DNA of 21,695 nucleotides from a virus. Positions within the stretch are counted from its first letter, which is position 1. Every line of letters begins with the position of its first letter. The notes beneath the pieces were generated by a model. The model did no database searches. It had not been told where the DNA came from and saw only the letters and a program-made list of their open reading frames with translations. The stretch lies in the IMG/VR virus record IMGVR_UViG_3300032278_002564, positions 1 through 21,695 of that record. The stretch is one strand, 5' to 3'. Position numbers and translations under genes: made by a program. This document shows positions 3-20,311 of the stretch, one piece after another.

Positions 3-197
3 TTTGTTAAAAAATGTAGTACATATAGAGATGAGATTTGTGATGATTTTGGATTTACACCAACTAACGTTGTTAGTTTATGTCTTGCATCATATGAAGA
101 TGAATTTTTCCTTGATCGCGACTCATCACCATATCCGACGGTAAATATAAGCATGGCCTTAACTAAAAAATTGGAAGGAACATATAATGTCAAATGA
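3..197 (+). CDS. C-terminal end of an unidentified protein (5' truncated by window)
   Basis: An open frame enters from the left edge and ends at TGA 195-197, leaving 64 visible codons. The other two plus frames have stops inside this stretch. The visible residues include two cysteines near the start (KKCSTYRDEICDD) and a soluble, mixed-charge tail. I do not recognise the family. Its last 11 bases overlap the start of the first radical SAM gene, so it is probably the upstream member of the same operon. A promoter-like GGTAAATA element lies inside its last codons. Confidence 0.6.
   Translation, partial: FVKKCSTYRDEICDDFGFTPTNVVSLCLASYEDEFFLDRDSSPYPTVNISMALTKKLEGTYNVK
138..150 (+). promoter_or_regulatory. 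GGTAAATA late-promoter-like element upstream of the radical SAM operon
   Basis: The 13-mer ACGGTAAATATAA ends 36 bases before the first radical SAM start. The same 13-mer occurs on the minus strand at 16167-16179, upstream of gp14. Its TAAATA core matches the downstream six bases of the T4 late promoter TATAAATA. It lies inside the end of the preceding gene, so transcription of the radical SAM genes could be boosted separately from that gene. The promoter role is inferred. Confidence 0.4.
173..179 (+). promoter_or_regulatory. Strong Shine-Dalgarno (GGAAGGA) for first radical SAM gene
   Basis: GGAAGGA is followed by a 7-base spacer and ATG at 187. This fixes the start of the radical SAM protein even though it lies inside the end of the preceding gene. 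Confidence 0.7.
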
Positions 198-1476
198 AAT
201 TATTGCTATTCATCGTTTTGGTTCAGAATTAACAAAACATATATTTGGGTGGGATTTAGGACGCCGATGTAATTATGACTGTAGTTATTGCCCAGCACAT
301 CGACATAATAATTATTCACCTCATGCTATGCTTGATGACTTATTTGATACATATAAAAAGGTATCAAGATATAAAGATGTTTTAAAAAATCGATCGTTAA
401 TTGATGATTTTGTAATTGGGTTCACTGGTGGTGAACCTGCCGCTAATCCAATCTTTTGGGATTTTTGTAATAAAGCAAAAGAATATGATAACGATATTCA
501 ACTTGGATTAACGTCAAATGGAACTATACCACGAAGGGTATATGAAAAGATTGGTGATTATATTGACACTATGACAGTTAGTTATCATTGTGAAGCAGAT
601 GATAAGATTAAACAAAATGTACAAGATGCAATATTTTATATCCATAGCAATACTGATACTTACATTAATGTTAATGTAATGTTTCATTCGGACGAAGAAT
701 ATTTTAATGAATGTTTGGAGTTATGTCGTAGGTTAGATAAAGGTAACGTTTCGTTTGTTCCGAGAATAATAGGAGAAATTGAATCAAGTGGACTTGATGG
801 AAAACCAATTGATAAAGAATTTCATAGTTATTCTGCGAGTCAACTTGAAAGATTAGATGAATATTATGTTGAAATGCGTAAGGGAAAAGCACCATCAAAA
901 GCATCAGTAAAAGTAAATCCACCAAAGGTTGATGATAAGCCAATAGTTGCTATGGCCGCGAATAAAACAAGAAACGAGATTGGCAGACCGTGTTGTGGTA
1001 AAGTATTTTTTAATACATTAACAGAGGAAAATTTTGATAATGTTGTTTCTGTAACACCTGCATTTCGTAGTGCCCTTGAGTGGAACGAAACACAGTTTTT
1101 ACGGACTAGTAAATTTAAAGATTGGTATTGTTTAGTACATTTATATTTGCCACATTTACAGCATGAAACAAGAATGATTTATGCTCATCAAACTTGTCAA
1201 GCAACAACTAATCGTCATCGTCAGGGACCGTTATGCACAATTGAAACATTTGATGAATACATTGATAAAATTGATGCAGGCAATATTCCAATAATGCAAT
1301 GTCCTAATATGCAATGTAATTGTGGTCTATGCACTCCAAAATCAAAGTATTTGCCAATAGTAGAAGAAATGGTTAAAGAGATATTTCCAATGAAGAAATC
1401 AATGGAAGGACAGCAGACTCGTCAGCGTCGGCAAGAAACAAAAAAAATAATGAGAGAATTACGTCAAGATGTTTGA
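187..1476 (+). CDS. Radical SAM protein 1 with C-terminal cysteine-rich (SPASM/twitch-like) region
   Basis: A 429-aa protein expected to cleave S-adenosylmethionine to a 5'-deoxyadenosyl radical. The [4Fe-4S] motif CX3CX2C is seen as CNYDCSYC (C28, C32, C35), and TGGEP at residues 80-84 is the SAM-binding motif. The C-terminal third carries further cysteines: C269/C270 and CPNMQCNCGLC at 372-382. These are likely ligands of auxiliary Fe-S clusters as in SPASM/twitch enzymes, many of which modify peptides. A basic tail of about 30 residues (KKSMEGQQTRQRRQETKK) follows. Its core resembles radical SAM protein 2 (LGRRCNYDCSYC versus LGRFCNYKCSYC), so the two are probably paralogs. It overlaps the upstream gene by 11 nt and the next by 8 nt. 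The substrate is unknown. Confidence 0.85.
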   Translation: MSNEIIAIHRFGSELTKHIFGWDLGRRCNYDCSYCPAHRHNNYSPHAMLDDLFDTYKKVSRYKDVLKNRSLIDDFVIGFTGGEPAANPIFWDFCNKAKEYDNDIQLGLTSNGTIPRRVYEKIGDYIDTMTVSYHCEADDKIKQNVQDAIFYIHSNTDTYINVNVMFHSDEEYFNECLELCRRLDKGNVSFVPRIIGEIESSGLDGKPIDKEFHSYSASQLERLDEYYVEMRKGKAPSKASVKVNPPKVDDKPIVAMAANKTRNEIGRPCCGKVFFNTLTEENFDNVVSVTPAFRSALEWNETQFLRTSKFKDWYCLVHLYLPHLQHETRMIYAHQTCQATTNRHRQGPLCTIETFDEYIDKIDAGNIPIMQCPNMQCNCGLCTPKSKYLPIVEEMVKEIFPMKKSMEGQQTRQRRQETKKIMRELRQDV

Positions 1477-1690
1477 TGAATTTGATGTGCGAGTATTACA
1501 AAAAGAAGCTGCAAGAGTTATTGCAACAATGGATGCTACTAGTAATAACATTTGGAAATTTAATAAGAAAGGCCATCATAATAGTATGAATTGGTACAAA
1601 GCAGTTCTTGAATGGTATATAGAGCAATATGGTGGTCTTCCTAGTAAAACAGGCCCGGGAAAAGATGTAACATTTATTATTGAGGACTAG
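1469..1690 (+). CDS. Small protein of unknown function inside radical SAM operon
   Basis: A 73-aa frame whose ATG overlaps the end of radical SAM protein 1 by 8 nt and whose stop lies 1 nt before the ATG of radical SAM protein 2. This tight packing argues for a real, translationally coupled gene. The N-terminal half looks helical and charged. The middle is rich in aromatic residues and Gly/His (NNIWKFNKKGHHNSMNWYK), and the tail is acidic. It has no cysteine, signal peptide or membrane segment. I do not recognise a family. Because small proteins between radical SAM genes are often substrates or carrier partners, it is a candidate for either, but nothing in the sequence proves this. Confidence 0.65.
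   Translation: MFDEFDVRVLQKEAARVIATMDATSNNIWKFNKKGHHNSMNWYKAVLEWYIEQYGGLPSKTGPGKDVTFIIED
1682..1686 (+). promoter_or_regulatory. Shine-Dalgarno GAGGA deciding the start of radical SAM protein 2
   Basis: GAGGA lies 5 bases before ATG 1692. A TTG at 1680 is in the same frame, but it would place this ribosome-binding site inside the coding region, so the ATG at 1692 is preferred. Confidence 0.6.
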
Positions 1691-1691
1691 T

Positions 1692-2852
1692 ATGTCTGAC
1701 TTAAAATGGAGCGAATATGATTTTACAAAAATCCCATATGAGGATTTAGTTCGTGTAGGACAACGAACTATGTTATATCGTGATATGTTTACGGTAAGTT
1801 GGTTGCTTGGTCGTTTTTGTAATTATAAATGTTCATATTGTTGGCCGTATGCTCGCAGTGATAAAAAAGATCACAGGCCTACGGAACTTTGTTTACGAAC
1901 TATAGATAGTATAAAGGAGCAAGCACGTGAAAGGGGATTTAATTCTTTTCATTTTAGTCTTAGCGGGGGTGAGCCTACTTTCCACCCTGGCTATTTGGAT
2001 ATTTTAGAATACCTATCAGATGATGTAGCAAATACAAATTATACAAGTTTGCATATGACTTCGAATTGTTCACGTAATATGAAATGGTTTGAAACATATG
2101 TTAAGCACGCTGCAAAGTTTCATCGAGCAAGTATTACAGCAAGTTTACATTCAGAGCACGTAAATACTATAGAAAAAATGCAACAGTTTGCTGATAAGTT
2201 AATGTTCTGCCAAACATGGGATGTACAAGTTACTATTAACATGGTTATGATTCCTGAATGGTTTGAACGAGATTGGGAGAATGCATTATTTTTTCATAAT
2301 CAAGGTATTAATGTTACATTAAAACCACAAAGTGATCCTACAGCAAGCAGAGTAGTAGATGGATATACTCCCGAAATGTTAGAAACATTACACAATGGGA
2401 TGCCACAACGAGCATATACAGAAGTAAAATCTGAAATAGAAAGACCTAAGCCGTCATTTGAGATTGATGCAGATAGAGAATTGCAAAAACAAACATATAG
2501 CCAAGGAGTTCCTCCTCATTTTCAAGTAGAATTTAGAGATAGCAAAGGTAATCCGTGGTTTATGGATCAAGCAGAACGATTTAATGCTTTTAATTTTAAT
2601 AAATTTAAGGGATGGGAATGTTCAAGTGGGATGCGTAGTATTATTATACGAGAACCAGATGGAACAATTAAACGCAGTTATTCATGTGAGGATGTTCCTT
2701 TAGGACAAATCGAAGTAGGGTTTAAATTGTTTGAAAAACCAATGCCGTGTATTAGTAAAAGTTGTGTTAGCAGTGCTGATAGTAAAATTCCTAAACGAGC
2801 GCCAGGTACTAAAATGTCATTGTTTCCTGGTGATAAATCTTTTAATGACTGA
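1692..2852 (+). CDS. Radical SAM protein 2 with C-terminal cysteines
   Basis: A 386-aa radical SAM protein. CNYKCSYC gives C43, C47 and C50, and SGGEP at 91-95 is the SAM-binding loop. The C-terminal region contains ECSSGM, SYSCED and PCISKSC, which would supply ligands for at least one auxiliary cluster. The section around residues 240-275 is rich in charge and may be an insertion relative to simpler radical SAM enzymes. The start is placed at ATG 1692, one base after the previous stop and 5 bases after GAGGA, rather than at the in-frame TTG 1680. Its N-terminal half resembles radical SAM protein 1. It overlaps the next gene by 8 nt, so it is likely cotranslated. The reaction is unknown. Confidence 0.85.
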   Translation: MSDLKWSEYDFTKIPYEDLVRVGQRTMLYRDMFTVSWLLGRFCNYKCSYCWPYARSDKKDHRPTELCLRTIDSIKEQARERGFNSFHFSLSGGEPTFHPGYLDILEYLSDDVANTNYTSLHMTSNCSRNMKWFETYVKHAAKFHRASITASLHSEHVNTIEKMQQFADKLMFCQTWDVQVTINMVMIPEWFERDWENALFFHNQGINVTLKPQSDPTASRVVDGYTPEMLETLHNGMPQRAYTEVKSEIERPKPSFEIDADRELQKQTYSQGVPPHFQVEFRDSKGNPWFMDQAERFNAFNFNKFKGWECSSGMRSIIIREPDGTIKRSYSCEDVPLGQIEVGFKLFEKPMPCISKSCVSSADSKIPKRAPGTKMSLFPGDKSFND

Positions 2853-4038
2853 GTTTTATTTTGATAATATTGAGTTACTTGATATAGAGTTAAGTAATAG
2901 GTGTAATGCTTCGTGTCCTATGTGTGCAAGAAATATACATGGTTGGTCTGTTAATCCTCGATTAAAGTTAAATGAATTAACGTTAGATGATATTAAAAAC
3001 ATTGATAAGAAGTATTTAGATCTATTAGATACTATTAATATAAGTGGTAATTATGGTGATCCTCTGGCTTGTACACAGATATTAGAAATTGTACATTATT
3101 TTTTAAATAATACTTCTGCCCGAATTATTTTGAATACAAATGGTGGAATTCGAAATACAAGTGTATGGGAAACACTTGGACAGTATTCGAAGGAATATTA
3201 TAATAATGAAAGTAAGTTAGAAATTAGGTTTGCTATTGATGGGTTAGAAGATACAAATCATATCTATCGTATTGGTGTACATTGGAAAATGTTAATTAAT
3301 AATGTTAATGCTTATATTAATGCTGGTGGTGATGCTACATGGCGATATTTAATTTTCTCTCATAATCAACATCAAGTTGATGAGGCTACTAAACTTGCAA
3401 GTACGTTAGGATTTCGTTCTTTTAAATCAGTTATAACTGGTCGATGGAGAGCTGATAGTTTTCCAGTACTTGATAAAGAAGGTAATTTTAAATATGATCT
3501 TTTTCCTGGTAATGTTGATATGAGTGAGTATAAGCAATTTGATCATCGTAAAAAAAGTAGTCTTAATATTGGAGAAAAAAGAAATATTACCAAATACGGA
3601 GTGTCTCTTCAAGCTCGAAAAGGATATGCATATTTGGGTAATGAAAGATTTAGTAATTATAAACTTGAGGATTGGAAAGAGCTTGTAGAAACGCCACTAG
3701 ATGGCCCCCAACCACTTCTTTCGTGTTATGCAGAAAAAGATAAGCGTGTTTACATAGATGCTAATGGATATGTTTTTCCGTGCAACTCATTAGGATATAT
3801 TTCTGGTTGGGCTAATAAGTATGATACATTTGGTAATCAAGTTGTCGATGCTATGCGTAAATATAGTAACACAAATATTAAAGAAGATAATTTGTCAACA
3901 ATATTAAATGGTGAATGGATTAAACATATTTGGAACACATGGCATGCACATACTATACAAGAAGGTAGGTTAATGATGTGTTCGTATACTTGTGGTAAAC
4001 AAGGTACACATAAAATGATAAAGGAACATAAATTATGA
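2845..4038 (+). CDS. Radical SAM/SPASM-like protein 3 (GNYGDP variant)
   Basis: A 397-aa protein. CNASCPMC gives the CX3CX2C ligands C20, C24 and C27. Where most family members have GGEP it has GNYGDP (68-73), a variant also seen in protein 5 of this window. The C-terminal part has YIDANGYVFPCNS and MMCSYTCGKQG, typical of the SPASM/twitch layout in which a glycine turn is followed by cluster cysteines. The open frame extends upstream to 2731. I chose ATG 2845 because it gives the conserved short leader before the Fe-S motif and an 8-nt overlap with the preceding gene. It is a paralog of protein 5 (6429-7619), with which it shares a perfect 34-nt repeat. Confidence 0.85.
   Translation: MTEFYFDNIELLDIELSNRCNASCPMCARNIHGWSVNPRLKLNELTLDDIKNIDKKYLDLLDTINISGNYGDPLACTQILEIVHYFLNNTSARIILNTNGGIRNTSVWETLGQYSKEYYNNESKLEIRFAIDGLEDTNHIYRIGVHWKMLINNVNAYINAGGDATWRYLIFSHNQHQVDEATKLASTLGFRSFKSVITGRWRADSFPVLDKEGNFKYDLFPGNVDMSEYKQFDHRKKSSLNIGEKRNITKYGVSLQARKGYAYLGNERFSNYKLEDWKELVETPLDGPQPLLSCYAEKDKRVYIDANGYVFPCNSLGYISGWANKYDTFGNQVVDAMRKYSNTNIKEDNLSTILNGEWIKHIWNTWHAHTIQEGRLMMCSYTCGKQGTHKMIKEHKL
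3238..3271 (+). repeat. 34-bp perfect direct repeat, copy 1
   Basis: These 34 bases inside radical SAM protein 3 are identical to 6843-6876 inside radical SAM protein 5. Both encode the same peptide DGLEDTNHIYR at the aligned position of the two paralogs, while the flanking nucleotides diverge at once. It is either a gene-conversion tract or a strongly constrained segment. Confidence 0.85.
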
Positions 4039-5885
4039 GTCAAGTATTTTGTCCAATGCCTTGGATTACACAAAGCACTCGTAACAATGGTGATATCAGG
4101 ATTTGCTGTCAAGCAAATGTTGGATTTGATCAGGGTTTAGCTCGTAAAGAAAGAGATATTACTGAGGCTTATAGTTCAATTACAACAACTTCATATTTTA
4201 ATTTAGATCCTGGGGCATATGTAGAGAAGGTGTTAAAGCAACATAACAGAGGTTGGAATACATACTTTGGTGAGCTTGATACTGATTTAACTTCTCATAC
4301 ATTTGATAGACATTTTGGGAGTTTAATGAATTTTTGTGTTAAAAGAATTGTTTTATTTAGAGCAGTATATGTTGATGAAATGCAACAGGTTATTACATTT
4401 ACTTTATTTCGAAATAAAACAGATGCTACAAAATATATTAAAGAAAGCGGAATTCAAAAGTTTCTTAATGATTTAGAAAGTAATGGATTTGATTGTACAT
4501 TTCTTAATAACGAAATGTCAAATGATGATGCAGATGGAATGGTTTCATTATTAAGAAATTTGCAAAAAGAAAAATCAAAGATTGTTTTGCGTAGTGACAT
4601 AAATTATGATTATGTTGATTATTGGGATTTGAGAAATGTTGCTGAAACATATAATGCTGGAACTGCTGATTTAGATGAAGCAAGAAATATACCAATGCTT
4701 AAAGATGCTCGCATTAAGATGTTAAATGGTGAATGGCCAACAGTTTGTAAAAGATGTGAAGATGAAGAAGCTGCTGGATTGCGTAGCAGAATGCAGTATG
4801 AGAATGAAAGATGGACACATCAAGGTGTATTTGATTTAAAAAAAGCAAAACAAGTTACAGCATCTGATGGTAGTATAGATACTTCAACTTTGCCTGTTGT
4901 ATATTATGATTTAAGATTTGGTAATTTATGTAATTTAAAATGTCGTTCGTGTGGTCCAACAGATAGTAGTGGATGGTATGAAGATCGTGTAAAGATACAT
5001 AGTCCAACATATATTGATACTGTTGGTGTTGTTAAGTTAGTAAAAAATGAAAAAGGCAAATATGAGCCTGAAAATGATATTTACGGATGGTATAAAAGCG
5101 AAAAGTTTTGGAATCAATTAGAAGATAAAATGTCTGATATTAAGCATTTGTATCTTGTTGGTGGTGAGCCAATGATGATTGATAAGCACTATGAATTTTT
5201 GCAAAAATGTATTGATGCTGGAAAAGCCGAAGATATAGTTTTAGAGTACAATACAAATATTACAAATATACCAGAACGAGCATGGAGTATATGGAAGTAT
5301 TTTAAAGAGATCCAGATTGGTGCATCAGTTGACGGCATTGGACCAGTTGTTGAGTATATGAGAAATCCTGCTAAATGGAAAATCTTAAATCGTAATATCC
5401 AGAGATTAGATAAAGCAGAAGGAAGTTTTAAATTATGGTTCGCACCAACTATTAGTATTTTTAATGGTAGGCATTTACCAGAAATGATTATTTGGGTGTT
5501 AGAACAACAATTTTCTAGATTTGCTGTTCAAACATGGAAAGCACCTGTAACACCTCATCCGTTGCATCATCCAAAATTATATAATTTAAAAATATTGCCT
5601 CAAGATGTAAAAAATGAGATTGAAGAATATTATGAATCTAGCAAACCAAGAATTAGAGAGTTAATCTATTCAGCAAATAATATAGGTCCAGCATTAAAAG
5701 AAAAAAAATATAATCTTACTACTAATATACTAGATCATTATGTAAAATTTATGAATGCCGACGACTGGAGTAATTTGCTCCCTCAATTTTGGCATATAAC
5801 AGATAAACTAGATTCAATACGAGATGAAACTTTAGAGAATTCTATACCTGATCTTTACGAATTAATTAAACATACACGACCATGA
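4035..5885 (+). CDS. Twitch-type radical SAM protein 4 with large N-terminal insertion
   Basis: A 616-aa protein, much longer than the related 361-aa protein at 16211-17296. It has the same N-terminal cysteine set (C6, C24/C25) and CKRCEDEE (C238, C241). These are followed by the radical SAM motif CNLKCRSC (C299, C303, C306) and GGEP (376-379). The gap between the CC pair and CxxC is 213 residues here but 37 in the homolog. About 175 extra residues (roughly 35-210), mostly charged and partly helical, are therefore inserted between the two auxiliary-cluster half-sites. A Shine-Dalgarno AAGGA (4021-4025) precedes the start, which overlaps the previous stop as ATGA. It is likely cytosolic. The substrate is unknown, and the insert may be a substrate- or partner-binding domain. 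Confidence 0.85.
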   Translation: MSQVFCPMPWITQSTRNNGDIRICCQANVGFDQGLARKERDITEAYSSITTTSYFNLDPGAYVEKVLKQHNRGWNTYFGELDTDLTSHTFDRHFGSLMNFCVKRIVLFRAVYVDEMQQVITFTLFRNKTDATKYIKESGIQKFLNDLESNGFDCTFLNNEMSNDDADGMVSLLRNLQKEKSKIVLRSDINYDYVDYWDLRNVAETYNAGTADLDEARNIPMLKDARIKMLNGEWPTVCKRCEDEEAAGLRSRMQYENERWTHQGVFDLKKAKQVTASDGSIDTSTLPVVYYDLRFGNLCNLKCRSCGPTDSSGWYEDRVKIHSPTYIDTVGVVKLVKNEKGKYEPENDIYGWYKSEKFWNQLEDKMSDIKHLYLVGGEPMMIDKHYEFLQKCIDAGKAEDIVLEYNTNITNIPERAWSIWKYFKEIQIGASVDGIGPVVEYMRNPAKWKILNRNIQRLDKAEGSFKLWFAPTISIFNGRHLPEMIIWVLEQQFSRFAVQTWKAPVTPHPLHHPKLYNLKILPQDVKNEIEEYYESSKPRIRELIYSANNIGPALKEKKYNLTTNILDHYVKFMNADDWSNLLPQFWHITDKLDSIRDETLENSIPDLYELIKHTRP

Positions 5886-6427
5886 TTATAGCAGGAAATA
5901 AAAACTATGGAGTTGCAGAAGGATTGTCAAATATATATCCAGATGCAATGTATTGTTCCCGAACAACTGGATATGATTTTGATAAGCAAGAAAGTATCCA
6001 TGCTTTTGCAAAAGAGAGTTGTGGGCATAATGAGATTATATTAGTTAGTGCATTATGGAGATTTCAACAAACTTTATTACTTGAAAAAGTGTTTAAAGAA
6101 AATAGTAATGAGAAACTAACTCCATTGATTGTTGTAATAGGAAGTACTATTGATCGTTATCACAAAGCATCTTCTTGGATATATGGAACTGAGAAAAAAA
6201 CATTAAGGCAATATGCTGATAGTCTTGCAAAGTGTGGTGTGTGGTCTGATTCACCAAAAGTTAGTTTAATTAGTTTTTGTACTTTAAGTAATAAACAGAA
6301 AGAACATCAAGGTAGGGTATGTATGGATATGGATCGTGCTGTAAGTTATATAAAATGGATAATTGATCAACCACGTGATTTGTGTATTAATGAAATTAGT
6401 ATAGACATGATACAAGGAGAACAGTAA
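5882..6427 (+). CDS. Short SDR-like (Rossmann) oxidoreductase-like protein
   Basis: A 181-aa protein starting by ATGA overlap with radical SAM protein 4. It begins MIIAGNKNYGVAEGL, resembling a glycine-containing nucleotide-binding turn. It then has an IVVIGS strand (S88) and YGTEK (Y101, K105), which fits the YxxxK catalytic pair of short-chain dehydrogenases, with the Ser about 13 residues before the Tyr as expected. Classical SDRs are near 250 aa, so this is reduced, and the canonical GxxxGxG is imperfect. It may be a minimal NAD(P)-dependent reductase or a non-catalytic homolog. Its place between two radical SAM genes suggests it acts on their product or supplies a partner. The family call is tentative. 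Confidence 0.55.
   Translation: MIIAGNKNYGVAEGLSNIYPDAMYCSRTTGYDFDKQESIHAFAKESCGHNEIILVSALWRFQQTLLLEKVFKENSNEKLTPLIVVIGSTIDRYHKASSWIYGTEKKTLRQYADSLAKCGVWSDSPKVSLISFCTLSNKQKEHQGRVCMDMDRAVSYIKWIIDQPRDLCINEISIDMIQGEQ
6414..6419 (+). promoter_or_regulatory. Shine-Dalgarno AAGGAG for radical SAM protein 5
   Basis: AAGGAG lies within the last codons of the SDR-like gene, 9 bases before ATG 6429, and supports that start. Confidence 0.65.
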
Positions 6428-6428
6428 A

Positions 6429-7619
6429 ATGTATGCAAATTTTGAATCAGTAAAAGAACTTCATATAGAAATGTCAAGTCGGTGTAATGCGGCATGCCCA
6501 ATGTGTTCACGCAACGAGTTAGGAGGAAGTACTAGACCTGATTTAAAATTGAAAGATTGGGATAAAGAGTTAATTCCAAAAGTTTTTGATTTACGATTTA
6601 AAAATTTAAGAAATGTTTTATTTTGTGGTACACATGGTGATCCTGCTGTTGTTCCTCATAGCTTAGATGCGGTTGAATATCTTAAAACAAATTTTAATAC
6701 TACTATAGAGTTTTTCTCAAATGCTTCAACTCGTAATAAAGATTGGTGGTATGAGTTAGGTAAATTATTACAAGGAGAAATAAAAGATGAGCATTCTTTA
6801 ATAAAACATTATAGAAAGAATGATATTGGAATTTTTAGTATAGATGGGTTAGAAGATACAAATCATATCTATCGTAGACAAACACATTGGAATGTTATTA
6901 TGGAAAATGCTGAAGCATTTATTCGTGCCGGAGGCAGGGCACGCTGGGATTTTCTTATTTTTAAACATAACGAACATCAAGTAGAAGAAGCAGGTAACTT
7001 GGCTATAAAAATGGGATTTAAGCAATTTCGTCTTAGAAAAACTGCACGATTTAATTATAGTCCAACAGGGCCTGAAAGATGGCCAGTATATAATAGAACA
7101 CCATATGGCACTCCGCAAGAGTTTGCATATTATTTAGAGCCTCCTAATGATCCTAGATATTATAATGAAGAAATTGATAAATTTGAAGCACTAAAAGAAA
7201 AGTATGGATCTGCTGAGAAATACTTTGATGCAGCTAAAATTAGTTGTTTATATAAAGATGAGTTTCATCGGATATATGTGAATGCATATGGACAAGTTTT
7301 TCCTTGTTGTTTTATTAGTAATGATGTATATCCTGGTTTAAATCCAATTAAAAAAGATACAATTAAGAAAGTATTTGATGTATATGGTAAAACATTTAAT
7401 GATTTATCTTTGCATAAATGGGAAGATATTTTAAGTCATGAATGGTTTGATTCAAAACTTGAAGAAAGTTGGGATACAAATTTAGAAGGTGGAAAACTTA
7501 TGAGATGTAGCCGTACATGTGGAAATGAATATTCTCCGATTATGTCTCAGAGTAAAGATACTAGTCTTTGCCATGACAAGAATGTGTATTATTACGGCTA
7601 TGGTAATGAACAAAAATAA
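6429..7619 (+). CDS. Radical SAM/SPASM-like protein 5 (GTHGDP variant), paralog of protein 3
   Basis: A 396-aa protein. CNAACPMC gives C19, C23 and C26, and GTHGDP (67-72) replaces GGEP. The C-terminal cluster-like region includes IYVNAYGQVFPCCF and MRCSRTCGNE, followed by a Tyr/His-rich tail. Residues 139-149 (DGLEDTNHIYR) and the following AGG...W...IF.HN.HQVEEA region align closely with protein 3, so the two arose by duplication. The start is set by AAGGAG 9 nt upstream and lies 1 nt after the preceding stop. The next gene starts inside its 3' end. The substrate cannot be inferred, although the SPASM-like arrangement is common in peptide-modifying enzymes. Confidence 0.85.
   Translation: MYANFESVKELHIEMSSRCNAACPMCSRNELGGSTRPDLKLKDWDKELIPKVFDLRFKNLRNVLFCGTHGDPAVVPHSLDAVEYLKTNFNTTIEFFSNASTRNKDWWYELGKLLQGEIKDEHSLIKHYRKNDIGIFSIDGLEDTNHIYRRQTHWNVIMENAEAFIRAGGRARWDFLIFKHNEHQVEEAGNLAIKMGFKQFRLRKTARFNYSPTGPERWPVYNRTPYGTPQEFAYYLEPPNDPRYYNEEIDKFEALKEKYGSAEKYFDAAKISCLYKDEFHRIYVNAYGQVFPCCFISNDVYPGLNPIKKDTIKKVFDVYGKTFNDLSLHKWEDILSHEWFDSKLEESWDTNLEGGKLMRCSRTCGNEYSPIMSQSKDTSLCHDKNVYYYGYGNEQK
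6843..6876 (+). repeat. 34-bp perfect direct repeat, copy 2
   Basis: Identical to 3238-3271 and in the same reading frame and aligned position of the paralogous radical SAM gene. Beyond the repeat only short matches remain, for example around ACATTGGA. Confidence 0.85.
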
Positions 7620-8824: not shown

Positions 8825-10035
8825 TATAATTTGTAATCGTTTTGTATACCTTCTCTTTCAATGTCAAGTGTTAAGCAATGCCATCCACCGTCAAAAAAGA
8901 AACGATGTCGTAATGGACAAAATATTGGTTCCATATCATGTTTATGCAATATATCAACAAGAACAGGATTTTCACTATTTACAACAACATATTTGTCATC
9001 TAACACTAAACAATTTACATCAAAAATTGTTTCCTCAACTTCGCCTGTCCAATTATCTAACCATTCTTCTACAAATTGTGTAAATTCATTATTTTTTTCT
9101 TCACCTGGAACCCACCATTTGCCTTTGTTCAGATATTTAAGTTTTCGCCAACCTTCTACATGTGACCAGTTAGGATCATCGAAGTATATAATTTTCCAAT
9201 TAGGAAATATTGATTGTATATTATATTCTCTTACCCAACCTGCCGCTATTACTAATCCTGGTTTTAAAACGGAAAAAACACTGTCATCATGCCCAAATAA
9301 ATCTATTTCTTTGTATTCGAACATAGGATAATAAGATTTTAATGTTGATTTAATATCTGATGTTTGCCATATGTCCACTAAACAGTTTTTTCCTATTCGT
9401 GTTATATTAGGAGCACAAAATCCAGGCACTGGTTTTTTCTCTTTTATTTCGAGTTTTTCTTCTAATGATAGTTTAGTAACATCTGTCTCAGTTACTCCAT
9501 CAACTAATCGTCGTTTTAGTAATGAATCTAATGCATGATCTGATCGATGTAAACGTATTTTTCCATCGAGAACATCAAAATTACAATTCTCTTCACCGAA
9601 CCATTCAACATACTTTTCTCGCATCATATGAACAGTAAAAGCATTTTCAGTTACAAAAACTTCATTACCCATTATAATAGTTTCGTCTCTTACTTGTAAT
9701 GGTGGTGCTGGTATTAAATTATTTCTAGTTATATCATGTTCTTGATCCGGTCCGAGCCATCCGAGCCTTCCGTCGTTATCTATATAATCCATAATAGATT
9801 CTTTGTAGCCAAGTTCCGTCGGAGTAGCTTGATATACATTTATTCCATGAGATTCTAAAGTAGTTTTAAAATAATTTAAATCTTCGATTGTTTCGTCGAA
9901 TATTTTTTTGAATGTATATTCGATAGTAGGATTTTTTATGTTTGAAAAAAAAGTCGGTTCGAACACACTACCTAGTAATACGGTCTTTAGAGGAGAGAAC
10001 TCATCCCAACTGTTTATTTTTGCAAATTTAGGCAT
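8824..10035 (-). CDS. Amidinotransferase-like protein (glycine/inosamine amidinotransferase family)
   Basis: A 403-aa protein of the guanidino-group-modifying family, which moves an amidino group from arginine through a cysteine adduct. Seen: LKTVLLGS near the N-terminus, GHDDSVFSVLKPG (H249 and D251 in the HxD position), and FDGGWHCLTLD with C387 as the nucleophile, close to the GGxHC motif of arginine:glycine amidinotransferase. Length (about 400 aa) matches the family. Oddities: the usual PRD segment is PLQVRDE (115-118), and the Asp of the FDAAD-like segment is replaced by FCAPN (206-210). Substrate or mechanism may therefore differ. It overlaps the YqeY-like gene by 8 nt upstream and the GNAT-like gene by 1 nt downstream. 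The product may be a guanidino compound, but hydrolase activity is also possible. Confidence 0.75.
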   Translation of the reverse strand: MPKFAKINSWDEFSPLKTVLLGSVFEPTFFSNIKNPTIEYTFKKIFDETIEDLNYFKTTLESHGINVYQATPTELGYKESIMDYIDNDGRLGWLGPDQEHDITRNNLIPAPPLQVRDETIIMGNEVFVTENAFTVHMMREKYVEWFGEENCNFDVLDGKIRLHRSDHALDSLLKRRLVDGVTETDVTKLSLEEKLEIKEKKPVPGFCAPNITRIGKNCLVDIWQTSDIKSTLKSYYPMFEYKEIDLFGHDDSVFSVLKPGLVIAAGWVREYNIQSIFPNWKIIYFDDPNWSHVEGWRKLKYLNKGKWWVPGEEKNNEFTQFVEEWLDNWTGEVEETIFDVNCLVLDDKYVVVNSENPVLVDILHKHDMEPIFCPLRHRFFFDGGWHCLTLDIEREGIQNDYKL

Positions 10036-10303
10036 TGTAGTAATTTTCTAACACTTTTATTAAGTACTTGTCTTTAGCAATAAGATCAGGACGATTACCT
10101 TTATTAAATTGTATAATGGCCTTATTACTTTGTTTAATCATTTTTTTTATAACTTTTTGTATACCTTCATCATCGAGTTCAATACGTTCATCAACTTCTT
10201 GCCGCTGAATTGCAGCTCGTAATAAACGTATTGCGTCAAGTCGTTCTTGATCTTTAGAACGCATTGCGTCCTTCATATCTGCTATAATACGGTCTTTAAG
10301 CAT
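10028..10303 (-). CDS. Mini YqeY / GatB-tail domain protein
   Basis: A 91-aa protein matching the start of YqeY proteins: MLKDRI, DMKDAMRSKD, RLDAIRLLRAAI, then QEVDERIELDD. YqeY and the tail of GatB form helical domains that bind tRNA in amidotransferase complexes. Full YqeY is near 150 aa. This copy stops just after the first helical domain (VLENYYNA), so it lacks the second half. The frame can be extended upstream to 10396, but the start at 10303 matches the family start and overlaps the DUF6614-like stop by 8 nt (ATGCTTAA). It also overlaps the amidinotransferase start by 8 nt. It is presumably a tRNA- or protein-binding helper. The family call is firm and the role is inferred. Confidence 0.75.
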   Translation of the reverse strand: MLKDRIIADMKDAMRSKDQERLDAIRLLRAAIQRQEVDERIELDDEGIQKVIKKMIKQSNKAIIQFNKGNRPDLIAKDKYLIKVLENYYNA

Positions 10304-10649
10304 CTGGCCAATCTCTATACAATGCATGTTGAATATTATCTCCAACAAATTGATTAAAAGATTTGTGTTTTTCGTCAATCTTGCCATCAATTTCATCTAA
10401 TGCATAACTTTCTGGTTTAGCAACACGATGGAATGCGTTTTCTAATTGTGACATATCTTTAGTTTCTATCATAATATGCCATTCTGGTAAGTCTTGTATA
10501 CTACGAAATCCTAGTTTACAACGAGTAATACGAAACGATTCAATTTTACCTTCTTCAACGAGCCGGTCTAAAAACCCTCTCATGTTAGAAGTCCAATCAA
10601 TATCACTTATATCGCCTTCTTTGTCTGCCCACACATGATAAATGTCCAT
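10296..10649 (-). CDS. DUF6614-like small protein
   Basis: A 117-aa protein, first gene of the minus operon. It starts MDIYHVWAD, continues with FLDRLVEEGKIESFRITRCKLGF, EWHIMIETKDMSQLENAFHRVA, and ends with VGDNIQHALYRDWPD. I recall this pattern from DUF6614 proteins of alphaproteobacteria, a ferredoxin-like alpha/beta fold of unknown function. No catalytic residue is evident. A TATAAATA element on the minus strand ends 5 bases before its ATG, so the transcript may be leaderless. Its presence next to YqeY suggests acquisition from a bacterial, possibly alphaproteobacterial, genome. Confidence 0.65.
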   Translation of the reverse strand: MDIYHVWADKEGDISDIDWTSNMRGFLDRLVEEGKIESFRITRCKLGFRSIQDLPEWHIMIETKDMSQLENAFHRVAKPESYALDEIDGKIDEKHKSFNQFVGDNIQHALYRDWPDA

Positions 10650-10662
10650 ATAAATATTTATA
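10649..10662. promoter_or_regulatory. Palindromic bidirectional late-promoter-like element
   Basis: TATAAATATTTATA is a perfect 14-bp palindrome containing TATAAATA on both strands. Each copy ends exactly 5 bases before an ATG: 10662 on plus and 10649 on minus. T4 late promoters carry TATAAATA at about -13 to -6, so both transcripts would begin at or next to the start codon. The sequence is certain and its promoter function is inferred. Confidence 0.55.
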
Positions 10663-11510
10663 TGTATACAAAGGAGTTAATACAAGCAACTCGTCCTAGA
10701 GCGATGTATGATACAGAAATACATTCGTTTCATAAAAGTTTACATATATCTCCAATGGATTCCGATCCCGAAGGATTGATTGATAAATTTAAAGTTAAAA
10801 TTGATGAGTGGATTAGTGCTCATACAAGGATTAAATTTACTGGATTAGACAATTTCCCTGATAGAAATGTGGTTTTAGGAGTTACTCATCAGTTAGATGA
10901 CCTTCATATGCAATATAAGGGCCGTATAGCCGTCTTTAAGGGTGACTATAGGTACCACTGGCGGTTAGACCCAAACGTGCGCTGTAGGGCATTACACACG
11001 CTTGTATACCCCGATATAGTAGTACTCTCAGTTCCTTTTCCGGGTAATGCTAATATGCACCCAGAAACCATGGAAATCCTTGAAAAGTGTAGGGTATTTA
11101 ATATCCCAGTTCATATAGATGCCGCATGGTTTGGTTGTTGCCGAAACATTAATTTTGATTGTAATCATCCTGCTATACAAACAGTGACATTTTCATTAAG
11201 TAAAGCACTTGGAATGGGTATACATCGTGTTGGTCTTCGTTATGCAAGAAAGCCGCAACATGGCCCTGTAAAAATAATGAATGATTTTGGCTATACAAAT
11301 ATATCAGATGTCTGGATAGGATTACAAATGATGGAGAAATTTGGACCAGATTTTTGGTGGAACAAATATGGACAACATTATAATAAAATTTGTAAGGATT
11401 TTAATTTCGAACCTGCTAACGCAATTCATGTTGCATGGGACAATAAAGATTTAGTAGGTATTCGACGATTATTACGAGTGTTAGAGGAAGGTAAACCAGG
11501 TTCCATATAA
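10662..11510 (+). CDS. Shortened PLP-dependent aminotransferase-like (fold type I) protein
   Basis: A 282-aa protein. LSVPFPGNANMHPETMEIL and VHIDAAWFG (D153, the pyridine-nitrogen Asp position) are followed by TVTFSLSKALGMGIHRVGLRY, with K181 as the probable PLP Schiff-base lysine. This order fits fold type I aminotransferases/decarboxylases. These are usually near 400 aa, so much of the N-terminal and C-terminal small domain is missing or reduced. I use ATG 10662 rather than 10635, because the latter lies inside the divergent gene and upstream of the promoter-like element. The AAGGAG at about 10671 is inside the coding region and probably chance. Bases roughly 10915-11120 are visibly richer in C-ending codons than neighbours. 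It is followed by a TAATG overlap. Confidence 0.7.
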   Translation: MYTKELIQATRPRAMYDTEIHSFHKSLHISPMDSDPEGLIDKFKVKIDEWISAHTRIKFTGLDNFPDRNVVLGVTHQLDDLHMQYKGRIAVFKGDYRYHWRLDPNVRCRALHTLVYPDIVVLSVPFPGNANMHPETMEILEKCRVFNIPVHIDAAWFGCCRNINFDCNHPAIQTVTFSLSKALGMGIHRVGLRYARKPQHGPVKIMNDFGYTNISDVWIGLQMMEKFGPDFWWNKYGQHYNKICKDFNFEPANAIHVAWDNKDLVGIRRLLRVLEEGKPGSI

Positions 11511-12088
11511 TGAAAAATATTGCAATTATTATTGATGCTTGGGCGACCAATAACTTACTAGCAGACCGGGATATACCAGTTCGTATTATAGATCTAATAT
11601 CACAAAATCAAACAATTGATAGTGTAATATTGGCTAGTTACGATATAGCAAATGAATTTATCTCTCAGACTATTTGGTATACGAATTTTAAAAAATTTAA
11701 TTTATCGGATTTATTTACTAATACTGATTTTATAGATGACTTAAAGAACAACTTTACTCATCCTAAGTTTGTTGGCAAGTTAAGTTACCTGGAACACCAA
11801 ACACACCCGCAGATATTAAATAAAATATGGTCGGATAAGTTTCAAATAGCTGTTTTTCATCCTTGTCAATTAAATTTAGATAGTATAAAAAATGTTTACT
11901 TCTTCGGAATGGCGTGGGATATATGCGTTATGTCTCGCCCATTAGGGTGGAGGTGGTGGATAGATTTCACCGATAAAAATTTATTTGTTTATGGAAAAGG
12001 AGTTGGATGGGACAATAAAGATATAGATAAAACCATGTGGTTAGAACAAGAAGAAGAATTATATCAATTTGCTAGAACTTCAAAGTGA
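11510..12088 (+). CDS. Degenerate cysteine-hydrolase (isochorismatase)-like protein
   Basis: A 192-aa protein whose ATG shares one base with the preceding stop. It begins MKNIAIIIDAWATN, with an Asp at position 9 following a hydrophobic strand. Later it has VYFFGMAWDICVMSRPLGW with C139. This strand-Gly...D-x-CV arrangement matches the catalytic cysteine segment of isochorismatase/nicotinamidase-type hydrolases, and size (about 190 aa) also fits. The usual cis-peptide and metal-site motifs are not obvious, and the catalytic Lys (perhaps K86 or K90) is uncertain. It is probably cotranscribed with the PLP enzyme and could process the same compound. The family call is tentative. Confidence 0.5.
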   Translation: MKNIAIIIDAWATNNLLADRDIPVRIIDLISQNQTIDSVILASYDIANEFISQTIWYTNFKKFNLSDLFTNTDFIDDLKNNFTHPKFVGKLSYLEHQTHPQILNKIWSDKFQIAVFHPCQLNLDSIKNVYFFGMAWDICVMSRPLGWRWWIDFTDKNLFVYGKGVGWDNKDIDKTMWLEQEEELYQFARTSK

Positions 12089-16210: not shown

Positions 16211-17296
16211 CTATAATGAATGTTCTGGTATCAAATGCGGACATACGTCTATTAAATTTTCATTCCGGAATTTATCTAATTTTGTATTGTATGTATAAAA
16301 TTCATTTAATAAATCGTTATTACAAGGAATTTGTAACACTTTAACAATATCATTAAATTCTGGGTATTTTGAGTATTTACTTATTAGACTTTTTTTAATG
16401 TTTGGAGGAAGTACCCATGCACCTACTTGTTCTCTACCAAAATTAAAACCATACTGGCATTCAGCATTAAGTTCATTTTCTATCCAAGGTTTAAATTCTG
16501 CAAATTCATGAACATTATAATTTGTTAGTGTTGTAAAAATATCAACCTTATACATTTTTTTTAATTTTTTTGTATTTTCTAATATTTGTTTATAATCTGA
16601 TTTAGGCCCTCGGATGTAATTGTGTGTTTTTTCAAATCCATCAATGCTTACAGTCATGTTAGTGTTAAAAAATGAAAGTTTGTTAAGCCATGTTGGTAAT
16701 CGGCTTCCATTTGTTGATATTGATATTTCTAAATTTTTAAGTAATGATGGATTGTGTTTAAAATGTTCTATAAGTTTATTGAGAAAATATTTTACATTTG
16801 GCATTATTAATGGTTCTCCACCTTTAAGTTCCATATAGACGGTCCCACTATTACAACTATTAGCAATAGTATTAATTAAATTATTAATAGTTTCATTAGA
16901 TGCAGAATAAGCAATGCCTGGTTCTTCATCAAACCAACTTGTACTAATTTCTGGTCCGCACATTTTACATTTAAAATTGCATAAGTTACTTAAATTGATA
17001 TCATATACTTGTATACTTTGACTAGTTAGATAGGTAGCTCGCTGTTCTATGTATTCTTTTCTACTTGTAGTGTTTTTTGATTCAGCAATTTTACATCTGT
17101 TACAGTTTGCAGGCCATTGGCCCTTTTTCATTGTGTTAATATCATCTTGAAATATTTTATCTAACGATGAAAATTCAAACCCAGATTTATATGGTATTTG
17201 ACCTTCATACCAACAACATGGAGCAATGGATCCCCAGGGAGTAAGTTGTACTGCTTTTGTAAATGCTAGACAAGGTTTTATAGATTTATTTTTCAT
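16211..17296 (-). CDS. Twitch-type radical SAM protein 6
   Basis: A 361-aa protein. The N-terminus has C9, C27/C28 (IAPCCWY) and CNRC (C65, C68), a half-cluster layout typical of twitch radical SAM proteins. The radical SAM motif CNFKCKMC (C106, C110, C113) and KGGEP (158-162) follow. STNGSRLP and VSIDGFEKTHNYIRG are the usual later strands of the barrel. It is the compact counterpart of protein 4 (4035-5885), which carries a large insertion between the N-terminal cysteine sets. It overlaps the upstream B12-type radical SAM gene by 11 nt, so the pair is likely cotranslated. The substrate is unknown. Confidence 0.85.
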   Translation of the reverse strand: MKNKSIKPCLAFTKAVQLTPWGSIAPCCWYEGQIPYKSGFEFSSLDKIFQDDINTMKKGQWPANCNRCKIAESKNTTSRKEYIEQRATYLTSQSIQVYDINLSNLCNFKCKMCGPEISTSWFDEEPGIAYSASNETINNLINTIANSCNSGTVYMELKGGEPLIMPNVKYFLNKLIEHFKHNPSLLKNLEISISTNGSRLPTWLNKLSFFNTNMTVSIDGFEKTHNYIRGPKSDYKQILENTKKLKKMYKVDIFTTLTNYNVHEFAEFKPWIENELNAECQYGFNFGREQVGAWVLPPNIKKSLISKYSKYPEFNDIVKVLQIPCNNDLLNEFYTYNTKLDKFRNENLIDVCPHLIPEHSL

Positions 17297-19079
17297 AGTT
17301 TGCTTCTGGGGTTAGGACATATGTTGAAGTTTTATCAATAGTATCCCAGTTTTCTATTTTTTTAACTTTTGATTGTGCTGTTTTTGAAAATTGCAATGTT
17401 GTATTTCCAATTTGCTGTGCCCATTTTTGTATTTCTTCTTCGGTTAGTGTTGTTAGTATATCGTCATAAAATTGTATTATTTCTTTAAATGTATATTTTG
17501 CTTTATGTAAGGCTGTTAAAATAAAGTCATTTGCTCTAATTTCTCGTTCATGTGCTGAAAAAAGAATTCCTCTATCTCTAAAAATTTCTTGTTTTTCGTT
17601 ACCGTCGAAAACTATTTCTTTCCACTGTTTTCCGTTTCGTTCGTTGTACTTAATTGTATCCCAGGTTATGCCGTCTTGCTCAAGTATTTCAATGTTATAT
17701 TTGCTAGGATATGTTAGATATTCCCCGCCTTCTTGCACACAAAAAACATTGTCTTGATAACCATTCATTATCTTTCTTTCTGTAAAATCTTTAATAAAGT
17801 TAATTAATTCCTGAAATTGTTCTGATGTTTCCCAAGGGAAGTTATGAATAAAGTTACATCGATTCCAAATTCCAGTTTCATGTGCAAGTGTTAGATTCTC
17901 TTTAATTCTGTCACCTGTTACATTTTTTTGAATTGTCTTTAAAATTTCATCATTGATAGTTTCTGTTCCATACCATAAAGAAATACATCCTGCTTCACTT
18001 AATGCATTGTAGATTTCTTGATTACCTAATCGTAAATTTGCTGAATCATTCCATGTAATTTTTAAATTTCGTTTAATTATTTCGTTACAAAATTCAAGTA
18101 GCCAGGATTTTTTCCAATTAATTTGATCATTAAAAAATCTAAAATGTTTAGCACCTTGATTTGCCATTGCTTCGAGATGATCGACTGTTTCGTCAGGAGT
18201 TAAATGTGCGAATCCATCTATTGTTGCCATTGCACAAAATGAGCATTTCGACCGGCAGCCATCTGTAAATTTATATGGATATATTTGAAATGGTTCAACT
18301 GATTTTAATTTGCTATATTGTTCTAATAATTTTTTTGGTATAAAATCGGTTGGTGCAACTAAAATATCTGAATGATTTTTAAATTCTGGTTTAGGATAAC
18401 TTTTATGAGTAAAGAGAAAAGAAGTCTGCAGACATCTTATAGTTGCATGTCCGAGGCGATAAGATGTCATTTCTAAATATTGAGATCGACGAATATCAAT
18501 CAAATATTTTGCTTCTTCGTGTCCGATTGTGCCTCTAATATAAGATGTTGGATGATGTTCTTCTTCGATATTCATACAAAGATTTTCTAAATGTTTTTTA
18601 TTAATTTTACCAAAAACAGTATTTCCACCAATAAAAATTTCTATTTCGTTAAAATTTCTTTTTAAAAACGAAGTTAGTATTATTGCAAAGTGGAAAGTCA
18701 TTTTTAATGGCCAATAAGCCGTACTGCGACGAGTAAAAGATATGCCAATGGCATCATAAGAATTAACATCTATGTCTTGTAATAACCAATTTGTTAGATG
18801 TGGTAGGTATGATTCGCTGTGTTCATCAATAATAAGATAATCATTTAATTTATCTACTTTAAGAAGTACGCTAAAATCTTCATCTGAAAATTCAAAGTTG
18901 TCAATCTGCTGTCGATATCTGTTTAGTTTTGCATTTAAATCATAATGATCAACTGAGTATTGGTTAGCATCCCATGATCCTGCGATTGCAATACCACCGG
19001 CGTTAATGTCATTTAAAAGTCGTTTATTTACTAGACTTACATTTGGTACGTCAAGTAATAGAATGTTATTTTTTTCCAT
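17286..19079 (-). CDS. B12-binding-domain-type radical SAM protein 7
   Basis: A 597-aa protein. The first 230 or so residues resemble a Rossmann/B12-binding domain: MEKNNILLLDVPN, YDLNAKL, and YDAIGISFTRRSTAYWPLK...FIGGNTVFG. The DxHxxG motif of classical cobalamin binding is not evident, so B12 may not be bound. The radical SAM motif DGCRSKCSFCA (C275, C279, C282) follows. FRFFNDQINWKK, LSEAGCISLWYGTETIND and IHNFPWETSEQF are typical of the 'Elp3/MiaB-like' catalytic core. A ~150-aa C-terminal part has no recognised domain. It starts the minus operon: a GGTAAATA element ends 6 bases before its ATG. Confidence 0.85.
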   Translation of the reverse strand: MEKNNILLLDVPNVSLVNKRLLNDINAGGIAIAGSWDANQYSVDHYDLNAKLNRYRQQIDNFEFSDEDFSVLLKVDKLNDYLIIDEHSESYLPHLTNWLLQDIDVNSYDAIGISFTRRSTAYWPLKMTFHFAIILTSFLKRNFNEIEIFIGGNTVFGKINKKHLENLCMNIEEEHHPTSYIRGTIGHEEAKYLIDIRRSQYLEMTSYRLGHATIRCLQTSFLFTHKSYPKPEFKNHSDILVAPTDFIPKKLLEQYSKLKSVEPFQIYPYKFTDGCRSKCSFCAMATIDGFAHLTPDETVDHLEAMANQGAKHFRFFNDQINWKKSWLLEFCNEIIKRNLKITWNDSANLRLGNQEIYNALSEAGCISLWYGTETINDEILKTIQKNVTGDRIKENLTLAHETGIWNRCNFIHNFPWETSEQFQELINFIKDFTERKIMNGYQDNVFCVQEGGEYLTYPSKYNIEILEQDGITWDTIKYNERNGKQWKEIVFDGNEKQEIFRDRGILFSAHEREIRANDFILTALHKAKYTFKEIIQFYDDILTTLTEEEIQKWAQQIGNTTLQFSKTAQSKVKKIENWDTIDKTSTYVLTPEANYEK

Positions 19080-19085
19080 TTTTAA

Positions 19086-19094
19086 TATTTACCA
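19086..19094 (-). promoter_or_regulatory. GGTAAATA late-promoter-like element at start of radical SAM protein 7
   Basis: On the minus strand it reads TGGTAAATA, with the TAAATA core ending 6 bases before ATG 19079. This is the third GGTAAATA seen, and all three lie upstream of an operon start. At this spacing a T4-like late transcript would have no leader. Confidence 0.45.
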
Positions 19095-19106
19095 TATATA
19101 CATAGG

Positions 19107-19134
19107 TTGACAAGGCGTTCGAAAATAATATAGT
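19107..19134 (+). promoter_or_regulatory. Sigma70-type promoter for 19144 gene
   Basis: A perfect -35 TTGACA (19107-19112) and TATAGT (19129-19134) are separated by 16 bases. The expected start, about 6-7 bases further on, falls only a few bases before ATG 19144, so the transcript would be nearly leaderless. It is in the 64-nt divergent gap with the B12-type radical SAM gene, which would let this gene be transcribed early by host polymerase. Confidence 0.5.
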
Positions 19135-19143
19135 ATAGCAATC

Positions 19144-20304
19144 ATGCCCCGAAAAATACGGAAAATAAAAGCAGCTGCTGGTAATCCATTTAAAAAACCT
19201 TCATGGAAGGAGTTTGAGGATGATATTATAGATGTTGATAAAGTAGCAGTTCGTAGAGAAGTGTCTCAAGGTTCCCGGTATTACAATTATAAGCATAAAA
19301 GTAAAGATGGTAAAAAATGGTTTGTTGAATACTTAAAGAAAGAAAAAGTAGATAAAGATAAAATAAAGCATGTAAAGATAGTGCCAGATTGGCAAGTTGG
19401 TATTACATATGGCGCATTAGCAAAAATGCTTATGGATGGATGTCCACCGTTAGAGGAATATACTGTGGCACTTGATAAACGACTTGAAGAATGCCTTAAA
19501 GTAAAAGTTAAAGATATTGAAGTTGTAGAGAATAAAGTTTTGGCACCAGTTATCTCAATACAAGAGCGTATGAAATTAAATCTTGATGATTTTCTTGGCA
19601 AGCATGTGGAAGGTGAAATTGATGATTTCTTTCAAAATAAATTTAAGAGTAAATTTAAGTTAATAACTATACTACAAGTAAATGAAATAACGGGCAAAGC
19701 TGCTGGAATGATATCTGATTTATATGCTCAAGAAATATCTGATATAACAGAGTTATTAAATCCTCCAAAAGAACCGGATGACGAATTTGAACAATTAACT
19801 GAAGGTTATCCATATAAAAAAGCAGAATTAAAAAAGATTTTAGCGTTCTATACTATGCTTGCTGAAGATGCAGATCATTATGCAAATTCACAAAAAGCAA
19901 ATCGTAAAATTCGTGTTAAAAAAGCACCAAGTATTGAAAAAGTAGTAGCAAAATTAAAATACGCTGTTACAAATGAGCAGTATAAGTTAGTATCAATAGA
20001 TCCTAAAAAGATTATTGGCTCTCAAGAGTTATGGGTGTTTAATACTAAAACTCGCAAATTGGGCAAATATGTTGCTGGTAATGGGTTTAGTACTGGAGAA
20101 TTATCTGTTAAAGGAACCGGTATTATTGGATTTGATGAAAAGAAAAGTGTACAAAAAACAGTTCGTAAGCCAGATGTAACATTAAAAGAGTTTCAAAAAG
20201 CCGGAAAAGTAGCATTGCGTAAGTTCCTCGAAGATATAAAAGCAACTGATATAAAGTTAACCGGTAGAATCAATAAGGATGTAATTCTCTTAAAAGTCAC
20301 ATAA
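19144..20304 (+). CDS. Lysine-rich phage protein of unknown function
   Basis: A 386-aa basic protein. It begins with a basic stretch (MPRKIRKIKA), then RRYYNYKHKSKDGKKWFVEYLK-like helical segments. Further on are long charged helices and a C-terminal region SIEKVVAKLKYA...YKLVSIDPKKIIGSQELWVFNTKTRKLGKY. That last part, with a Trp-Val-Phe-Asn-Thr-Lys-Thr-Arg run, resembles conserved hypothetical proteins of marine T4-like phages as I remember them. No enzyme motif, signal peptide or membrane segment is seen. A virion or DNA-associated role is possible but unproven. A likely host-type promoter abuts its start. Confidence 0.65.
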   Translation: MPRKIRKIKAAAGNPFKKPSWKEFEDDIIDVDKVAVRREVSQGSRYYNYKHKSKDGKKWFVEYLKKEKVDKDKIKHVKIVPDWQVGITYGALAKMLMDGCPPLEEYTVALDKRLEECLKVKVKDIEVVENKVLAPVISIQERMKLNLDDFLGKHVEGEIDDFFQNKFKSKFKLITILQVNEITGKAAGMISDLYAQEISDITELLNPPKEPDDEFEQLTEGYPYKKAELKKILAFYTMLAEDADHYANSQKANRKIRVKKAPSIEKVVAKLKYAVTNEQYKLVSIDPKKIIGSQELWVFNTKTRKLGKYVAGNGFSTGELSVKGTGIIGFDEKKSVQKTVRKPDVTLKEFQKAGKVALRKFLEDIKATDIKLTGRINKDVILLKVT

Positions 20305-20311
20305 CTAAATA
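20304..20311 (+). promoter_or_regulatory. TAAATA element before the adenylating enzyme gene
   Basis: ACTAAATA ends 5 bases before ATG 20317, the same spacing as the two arms of the 10649-10662 palindrome. It starts at the last base of the preceding stop codon. It is weaker evidence because TAAATA is common in AT-rich DNA. Confidence 0.3.

Follow-up and report, generated by a model that had tools for sequence, protein, structure and literature searches.

Leaderless mRNAs are known from the cI gene of phage lambda and from mycobacteria. Phage transcripts are said to be often leaderless in an AR9 paper (PMC5312081). The T4 late promoter consists of an 8-bp TATAAATA core at −13 to −6 with AT-rich sequence just downstream and no −35 element (PMC2988020), and the late promoter of the cyanophage S-PM2 is NATAAATA (PMC2984593); late promoter prediction by the cyanophage method was reported to be unsuccessful in pelagimyophages (PMC7029224). 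In bacteria, bidirectional promoters share one symmetric −10 region and give divergent starts 7-25 bp apart (PMC10268837). Here, we describe a locus in which features of all these systems appear to meet.

The window, i.e., the whole stretch of DNA analyzed (21,695 bases, 68% A+T), is a 21.7-kb fragment of a virus record; it encodes a tail sheath stabiliser resembling T4 gp15 (PF16724), along with numerous radical-SAM genes. Among cultured phages, the gp15-like protein places the window closest to Pseudomonas phage PA5oct with its kin, to Sinorhizobium phage Phosso, and to Agrobacterium phage Atu_ph07, at 37-38% identity. The radical SAM matches (Pfam) fall on seven called genes within 187-7619 and 16211-19079: five of the first seven genes on the plus strand plus two minus-strand genes, with two matches below the curated cut-off; such a number is unusual for a T4-like phage.

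A perfect 18-bp palindrome, CATATAAATATTTATATG, is located at 10647-10664 between two divergent genes and takes in both start codons. This strandless element, recognized from the sequence and followed in an IMG/VR scan, loses its symmetry one base further out on either side. The initial annotation had claimed a perfect palindrome serving two divergent genes, which is correct, but the element is larger than claimed, as TATAAATATTTATA (10649-10662) is only the 14-mer core of the 18-bp sequence. On the plus side, a TATAAATA core (10649-10656) is followed by the spacer TTTAT (10657-10661) and the ATG from 10662; on the minus side, the core runs from 10662 to 10655, followed by the same spacer TTTAT and the ATG from 10649, so that the claimed distance of 5 nt from each core to an ATG holds in both directions. 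The cores would occupy −13 to −6 if +1 is at 10662 and 10649, respectively. They overlap at 10655-10656; the two ATGs are separated by 12 bp, and the predicted starts are 13 bp apart. Neither strand of the 21,695 bases contains a further copy of TATAAATA, compared with 5.7 copies in shuffles. We looked for a GGAG-type Shine-Dalgarno sequence upstream of the 10649 and 10662 starts and found none at either, in agreement with the initial annotation, and an alternative in-frame ATG at 10635, 27 nt upstream of the plus start, likewise lacks one. An AAAGGAG is present at 10670-10676 within the plus gene; no ATG, GTG, or TTG is suitably spaced from it. Sigma-70 promoters at the palindrome were also considered and rejected, because no sigma-70-like match overlaps the site.

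The minus gene (10296-10649, 117 aa) matches DUF6614 (PF20319) in Pfam, and the match begins at residue 1, which supports the minus start at 10649. It probably shares a transcription unit with a YqeY-like gene (PF09424 by Pfam match; 10028-10396, minus strand), whose listed frame overlaps it. A Pfam search with the plus gene (10662-11510, 282 aa) gave nothing above the cut-off; a low-confidence model and four aligned homologues, to which an SLSK-type lysine motif is common, indicate a probable PLP-dependent fold-type I (aminotransferase-like) enzyme, where the mean pLDDT of 58 suggests the superfamily and no more. The gene downstream (11510-12088, plus strand, 192 aa, no family found) is probably in one transcription unit with the plus gene. 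Neither gene of the divergent pair encodes a structural protein. The bacterial relatives of the DUF6614 protein are mostly from Alphaproteobacteria at 35-47% identity, too distant to name a host, and a host inference from this protein was rejected.

Quite probably, the palindrome represents two overlapping, opposed T4-type late promoters that give leaderless mRNAs for both genes, as judged from the sequence. Since T4 late cores are situated at −13 to −6, a spacing of five bases between core and start codon (k = 5 in TAAATA-Nk-ATG) places +1 on the A of the ATG. A gp55-like late sigma on the host RNA polymerase would recognize TATAAATA on either strand without a −35 element, and transcription would start 5 nt past the core, on the A of the ATG, producing mRNAs that are presumably translated without a leader: one for the PLP-enzyme gene on the plus strand and one for the DUF6614/YqeY genes on the minus strand. 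With predicted starts 13 bp apart, the melted regions would largely coincide, so that two polymerases could not open the site simultaneously; the direction of transcription would be chosen at each initiation event, the two mRNAs would be mutually exclusive in this sense, and both genes would be expressed late.

The spacing in related phages, which the initial annotation had named as a check, was measured as k upstream of the called gene starts in each genome, with starts taken from our own ORF script instead of a trained gene finder. The three closest viral relatives of the window show a genome-wide spike at 5 nt, with 19, 11, and 20 sites at k = 5 against means of 1.03, 0.43, and 1.03 per other spacing (G001, G002, and G003, respectively), and in HTVC008M, a cultured Pelagibacter phage, the corresponding values are 10 and 0.43. 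Spikes were also found in G033 (10 vs. 0.16), G035 (7 vs. 0.30), G028 (6 vs. 0.59), and G034 (6 vs. 0.70), counts that include palindrome sites because G027, G028, G030, and G033-G036 were chosen as palindrome-bearing. Mosig has 5 sites against 0.78, and the signal of Melnitz is weak (3 vs. 0.73). In a motif-free test, TAAATA at −11 was the top position-specific hexamer in G001, G002, G003, HTVC008M, G033, and G035. No k = 5 spike exists in T4 (0), Syn9 (0), PA5oct (1), the 100-kb parts of Phosso (0) and Atu_ph07 (0), or the relatives G017 (1) and G024 (2), and few sites were found in G005, G022, G030, and G036. In G007 (L157-L162), TAAATA occurs 6 times at 4 nt and 4 times at 5 nt, and in G027 (L432-L438) 5 times at each; the 4-nt spacing may reflect a start site displaced by one base. 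In G034 (L446-L449), just 4% of called first starts are preceded by a Shine-Dalgarno sequence and the top positional hexamer is TATAAT at −12, which suggests that this phage also has leaderless sigma-70-type promoters. The window itself has one k = 5 site by the strict gene caller and three when frames of at least 60 aa are counted directly; the strict count is low because the first plus-frame ATG is 10635 and because short or open frames are dropped.

The genes behind these cores are often structural. G001 has 21 k = 5 genes, and among the 10 scanned, hits to structural, connector, or packaging families were obtained for five (a baseplate wedge of the gp25 type, a head-tail adaptor, the small and large terminase subunits, and a second baseplate/virion-matching protein) and a PAAR hit for one; one of the others has a family of unknown function only, and three have no match at all. 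In the first 20 kb of HTVC008M, all six k = 5 ATGs are the starts annotated by the depositors. The k = 5 genes of this phage include the tail tape measure, the DNA end protector (gp2), and the head completion protein (gp4); gp2 and gp4 form a divergent late pair (L095:18392-19440) with two back-to-back k = 5 cores and starts 27 bp apart, at 18916 (minus) and 18943 (plus). Among reciprocal best hits between G001 and G003, a k = 5 partner exists for 9 of 12 G001 k = 5 genes but for only 7 of 139 others (Fisher 2.5e-8), and the spacing is exact even where the five spacer bases differ between the orthologues. At greater distances, k = 5 is shared by none of the orthologue pairs in G001-HTVC008M, G001-PA5oct, HTVC008M-T4, and HTVC008M-Syn9, and HTVC008M shares it with Mosig in 2 of 6 cases and with Melnitz in 2 of 9, which indicates that the sites turn over.

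We found gp55-like genes in 13 of 21 records (G001, G003, G017, G024, G033, G034, G035, PA5oct, T4, HTVC008M, Syn9, Mosig, and Melnitz), eight of which (G001, G003, G033, G034, G035, HTVC008M, Mosig, and Melnitz) are phages with the full or weak 5-nt rule. The family was searched for and not found in G002, G004, G007, G027, G028, G030, and G036; neither gp55 nor gp33 is in the 21.7-kb window, and a search for the gp33 family in G001 and G003 was also negative. Ribosomal protein bS21, encoded by many of these phages (e.g., G001:C1:167017-167172, G003:C1:23069-23224, and G024:C1:25322-25477), is present in G001-G004, HTVC008M, Mosig, and Melnitz. As a cause of the leaderless pattern it was rejected for lack of a clean correlation: every clear-spike relative examined first (G001, G002, G003, and HTVC008M) has it, but so do the spike-less PA5oct, Atu_ph07, Phosso, and G024, and it is missing from the spike fragments G028, G033, G034, and G035.

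The window contains other candidate late promoters. A ACTAAATA core at 20304-20311 (plus strand), separated by exactly 5 nt from the downstream ATG that opens the gene at 20317, is another candidate leaderless late promoter. For the minus-strand gene at 19079, the distance from its ATG to a GGTAAATA core at 19086-19093 (minus strand) is 6 nt. A further GGTAAATA at 140-147 precedes the radical SAM gene at 187, which has AAGGA before its ATG, the layout of a conventional leadered late promoter. With three copies against 1.4 expected, GGTAAATA is not significant in the window and was rejected as a separate late motif. In the divergent region 19080-19143, between the genes at 19079 (minus) and 19144 (plus), we observed TTGACA-16-TATAGT; since no more than 9 nt separate its −10 box from the plus ATG, a promoter of the sigma-70 type there would be nearly leaderless too.

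TAAATA before the ATG could instead be a translation signal, an A/U-rich start context on transcripts that start further upstream. The motif is indeed registered to the start codon, and in 98 k = 5 sites from 11 sets including the window, T is preferred at −1 (73 sites; A at −12 in 58), possibly a ribosome context; Shine-Dalgarno use is also low in some of these phages (0.04 in G034). However, base counts over the same 98 sites from 11 sets gave no enriched −35 element, the core equals the published T4 late core (PMC2984593, PMC2988020), and the surroundings of the k = 5 genes suit a promoter: an upstream gap of at most 5 nt, a tight operon junction, precedes 7% of them (n = 94) compared with 45% of other genes (n = 1070), and 33% compared with 14% have a divergent neighbor, as expected of promoters. 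At the palindrome itself, where 12 bp separate the ATGs, transcription from further upstream would have to begin within the opposite gene, in a region without an overlapping sigma-70-like match. We therefore regard a pure translation signal as improbable. An operator bound by a dimeric regulator also typically shows perfect dyad symmetry between divergent genes; such a reading is very unlikely here given the single non-palindromic cores at identical 5-nt spacing throughout these genomes and the many unrelated genes to which the palindrome is joined (52 stretches). Chance in AT-rich DNA is already disfavored by the counts and is hardly credible: the 14-mer TATAAATATTTATA has one copy in the window and appeared in 0 of 100 shuffles, and exact CATATAAATATTTATATG is found in 52 IMG/VR stretches, compared with one for the same-composition control palindrome CATATTAAATTTAATATG, although the window is 68% A+T and 8 of 34 exact palindromes elsewhere open no frame, so CATATAAATATTTATATG arises by other routes too.

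It is unlikely, though less so, that only one direction works, the other half being a by-product of TATAAATA with an AT-rich spacer and the second gene being driven from elsewhere. The DUF6614 locus in relatives speaks for such a view, since palindromy is evidently not required there: separate, non-palindromic promoters occur in G005, where the divergent starts are 39 bp apart, and in L008 and L014, where the divergent neighbor starts with TATAAATATTTTTATG. The exact palindrome is absent from this locus in all 44 relatives, so the conservation of the palindrome, on which the initial annotation had made its interpretation depend, does not hold for this gene; the 5-nt geometry does, as all four distinct nearest relatives keep TAA[AG]TA-N5-ATG (G in L002 and L008, A in L009 and L014). 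Across 31 distinct DUF6614 upstream regions, TAA[AG]TA is at k = 5 in five and at k = 4 in two. In contrast, the palindrome is found again at other gene pairs. Two homologues of the plus gene carry it (L205, 38% identity; L257, 19%), and a third (L046, 38%) has a single k = 5 core. Among 34 non-redundant exact palindromes, frames of at least 60 aa are opened both ways in 17, one way in nine, and neither way in eight, where 3% would be expected to open both ways and 18% of random ATGs at these loci open a frame of 60 aa; grouped by reading the N-termini, the 17 cases make up 12 gene-pair groups in addition to that of the window. When one degenerate base is allowed on each side, both frames are open in 13 of 84 cases at k = 5 but in 0 of 27 at k = 4 and 1 of 26 at k = 6 among the matches listed, an excess over the ATGs shifted by one base with Fisher 0.008 among these matches, and all 13 carry at least one exact TATAAATA. 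Non-redundant degenerate cases whose sequence ended too soon were dropped (2 of 86 at k = 5, 2 of 29 at k = 4, and 2 of 28 at k = 6), and the counts of the CATNTAAATATTTANATG scan of IMG/VR are lower bounds, to be read as "at least". In the L166/L173/L206/L250 group, the palindrome is 94-100% identical, whereas the 60-bp flanks are 62-82% identical on one side and 23-72% on the other (ungapped).

The interpretation of two opposed late promoters starting at the AUG is thus supported as far as sequence can go. More broadly, we lean towards the view that several marine lineages of the T4 superfamily, including HTVC008M, have shifted part of their late program to leaderless mRNAs by fixing the gp55 core at a distance of 5 nt from the AUG, and that the 18-bp palindrome is the extreme form, in which promoters, start sites, and start codons are each paired in one element and the two late mRNAs exclude each other at each initiation. 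A major phage superfamily would then have its late promoter tied to the start codon, so that promoter and translation start could not vary independently. If this is true, changes of the ribosome during infection, such as phage bS21, could favor leaderless late mRNAs, and the k = 5 mRNAs offer a testable set for what phage bS21 selects late in infection, an open question according to PMC9723584. The start-at-AUG layout may also explain the failed late promoter prediction in pelagimyophages reported in PMC7029224, and the 5-nt core gives gene callers a start-site signal. In the accessible literature searched, we recognized no description of leaderless late transcription in T4-like phages; the T4 late core, bidirectional promoters, and leaderless mRNA are known separately, and their joining appears undescribed as far as we found.

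Compared with the T4 late promoter, which works with gp55-RNA polymerase, gp33, and gp45, the palindrome has the same TATAAATA core, and gp55-like genes exist in the relatives; however, no called T4 start has TAAATA 4, 5, or 6 nt upstream, and the commonest T4 spacing, 28 nt, leaves room for a leader, whereas the core of the palindrome abuts the start codon. The cyanophage late promoters share the identical core in marine T4-like phages, but Syn9 has no gene start at k = 4, 5, or 6. As in other leaderless mRNAs, the predicted mRNA starts at the AUG without a Shine-Dalgarno sequence; the difference is that leaderlessness here would be set by late promoter spacing, across many genes of a T4-superfamily phage. 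The predicted starts of the palindrome, 13 bp apart, fall within the 7-25 bp of bacterial bidirectional promoters. These depend on sigma-70, have starts usually 18 bp apart, and often give an antisense non-coding second RNA (PMC10268837), whereas both RNAs predicted from the palindrome are mRNAs from the AUG, and the sigma would be encoded by the phage.
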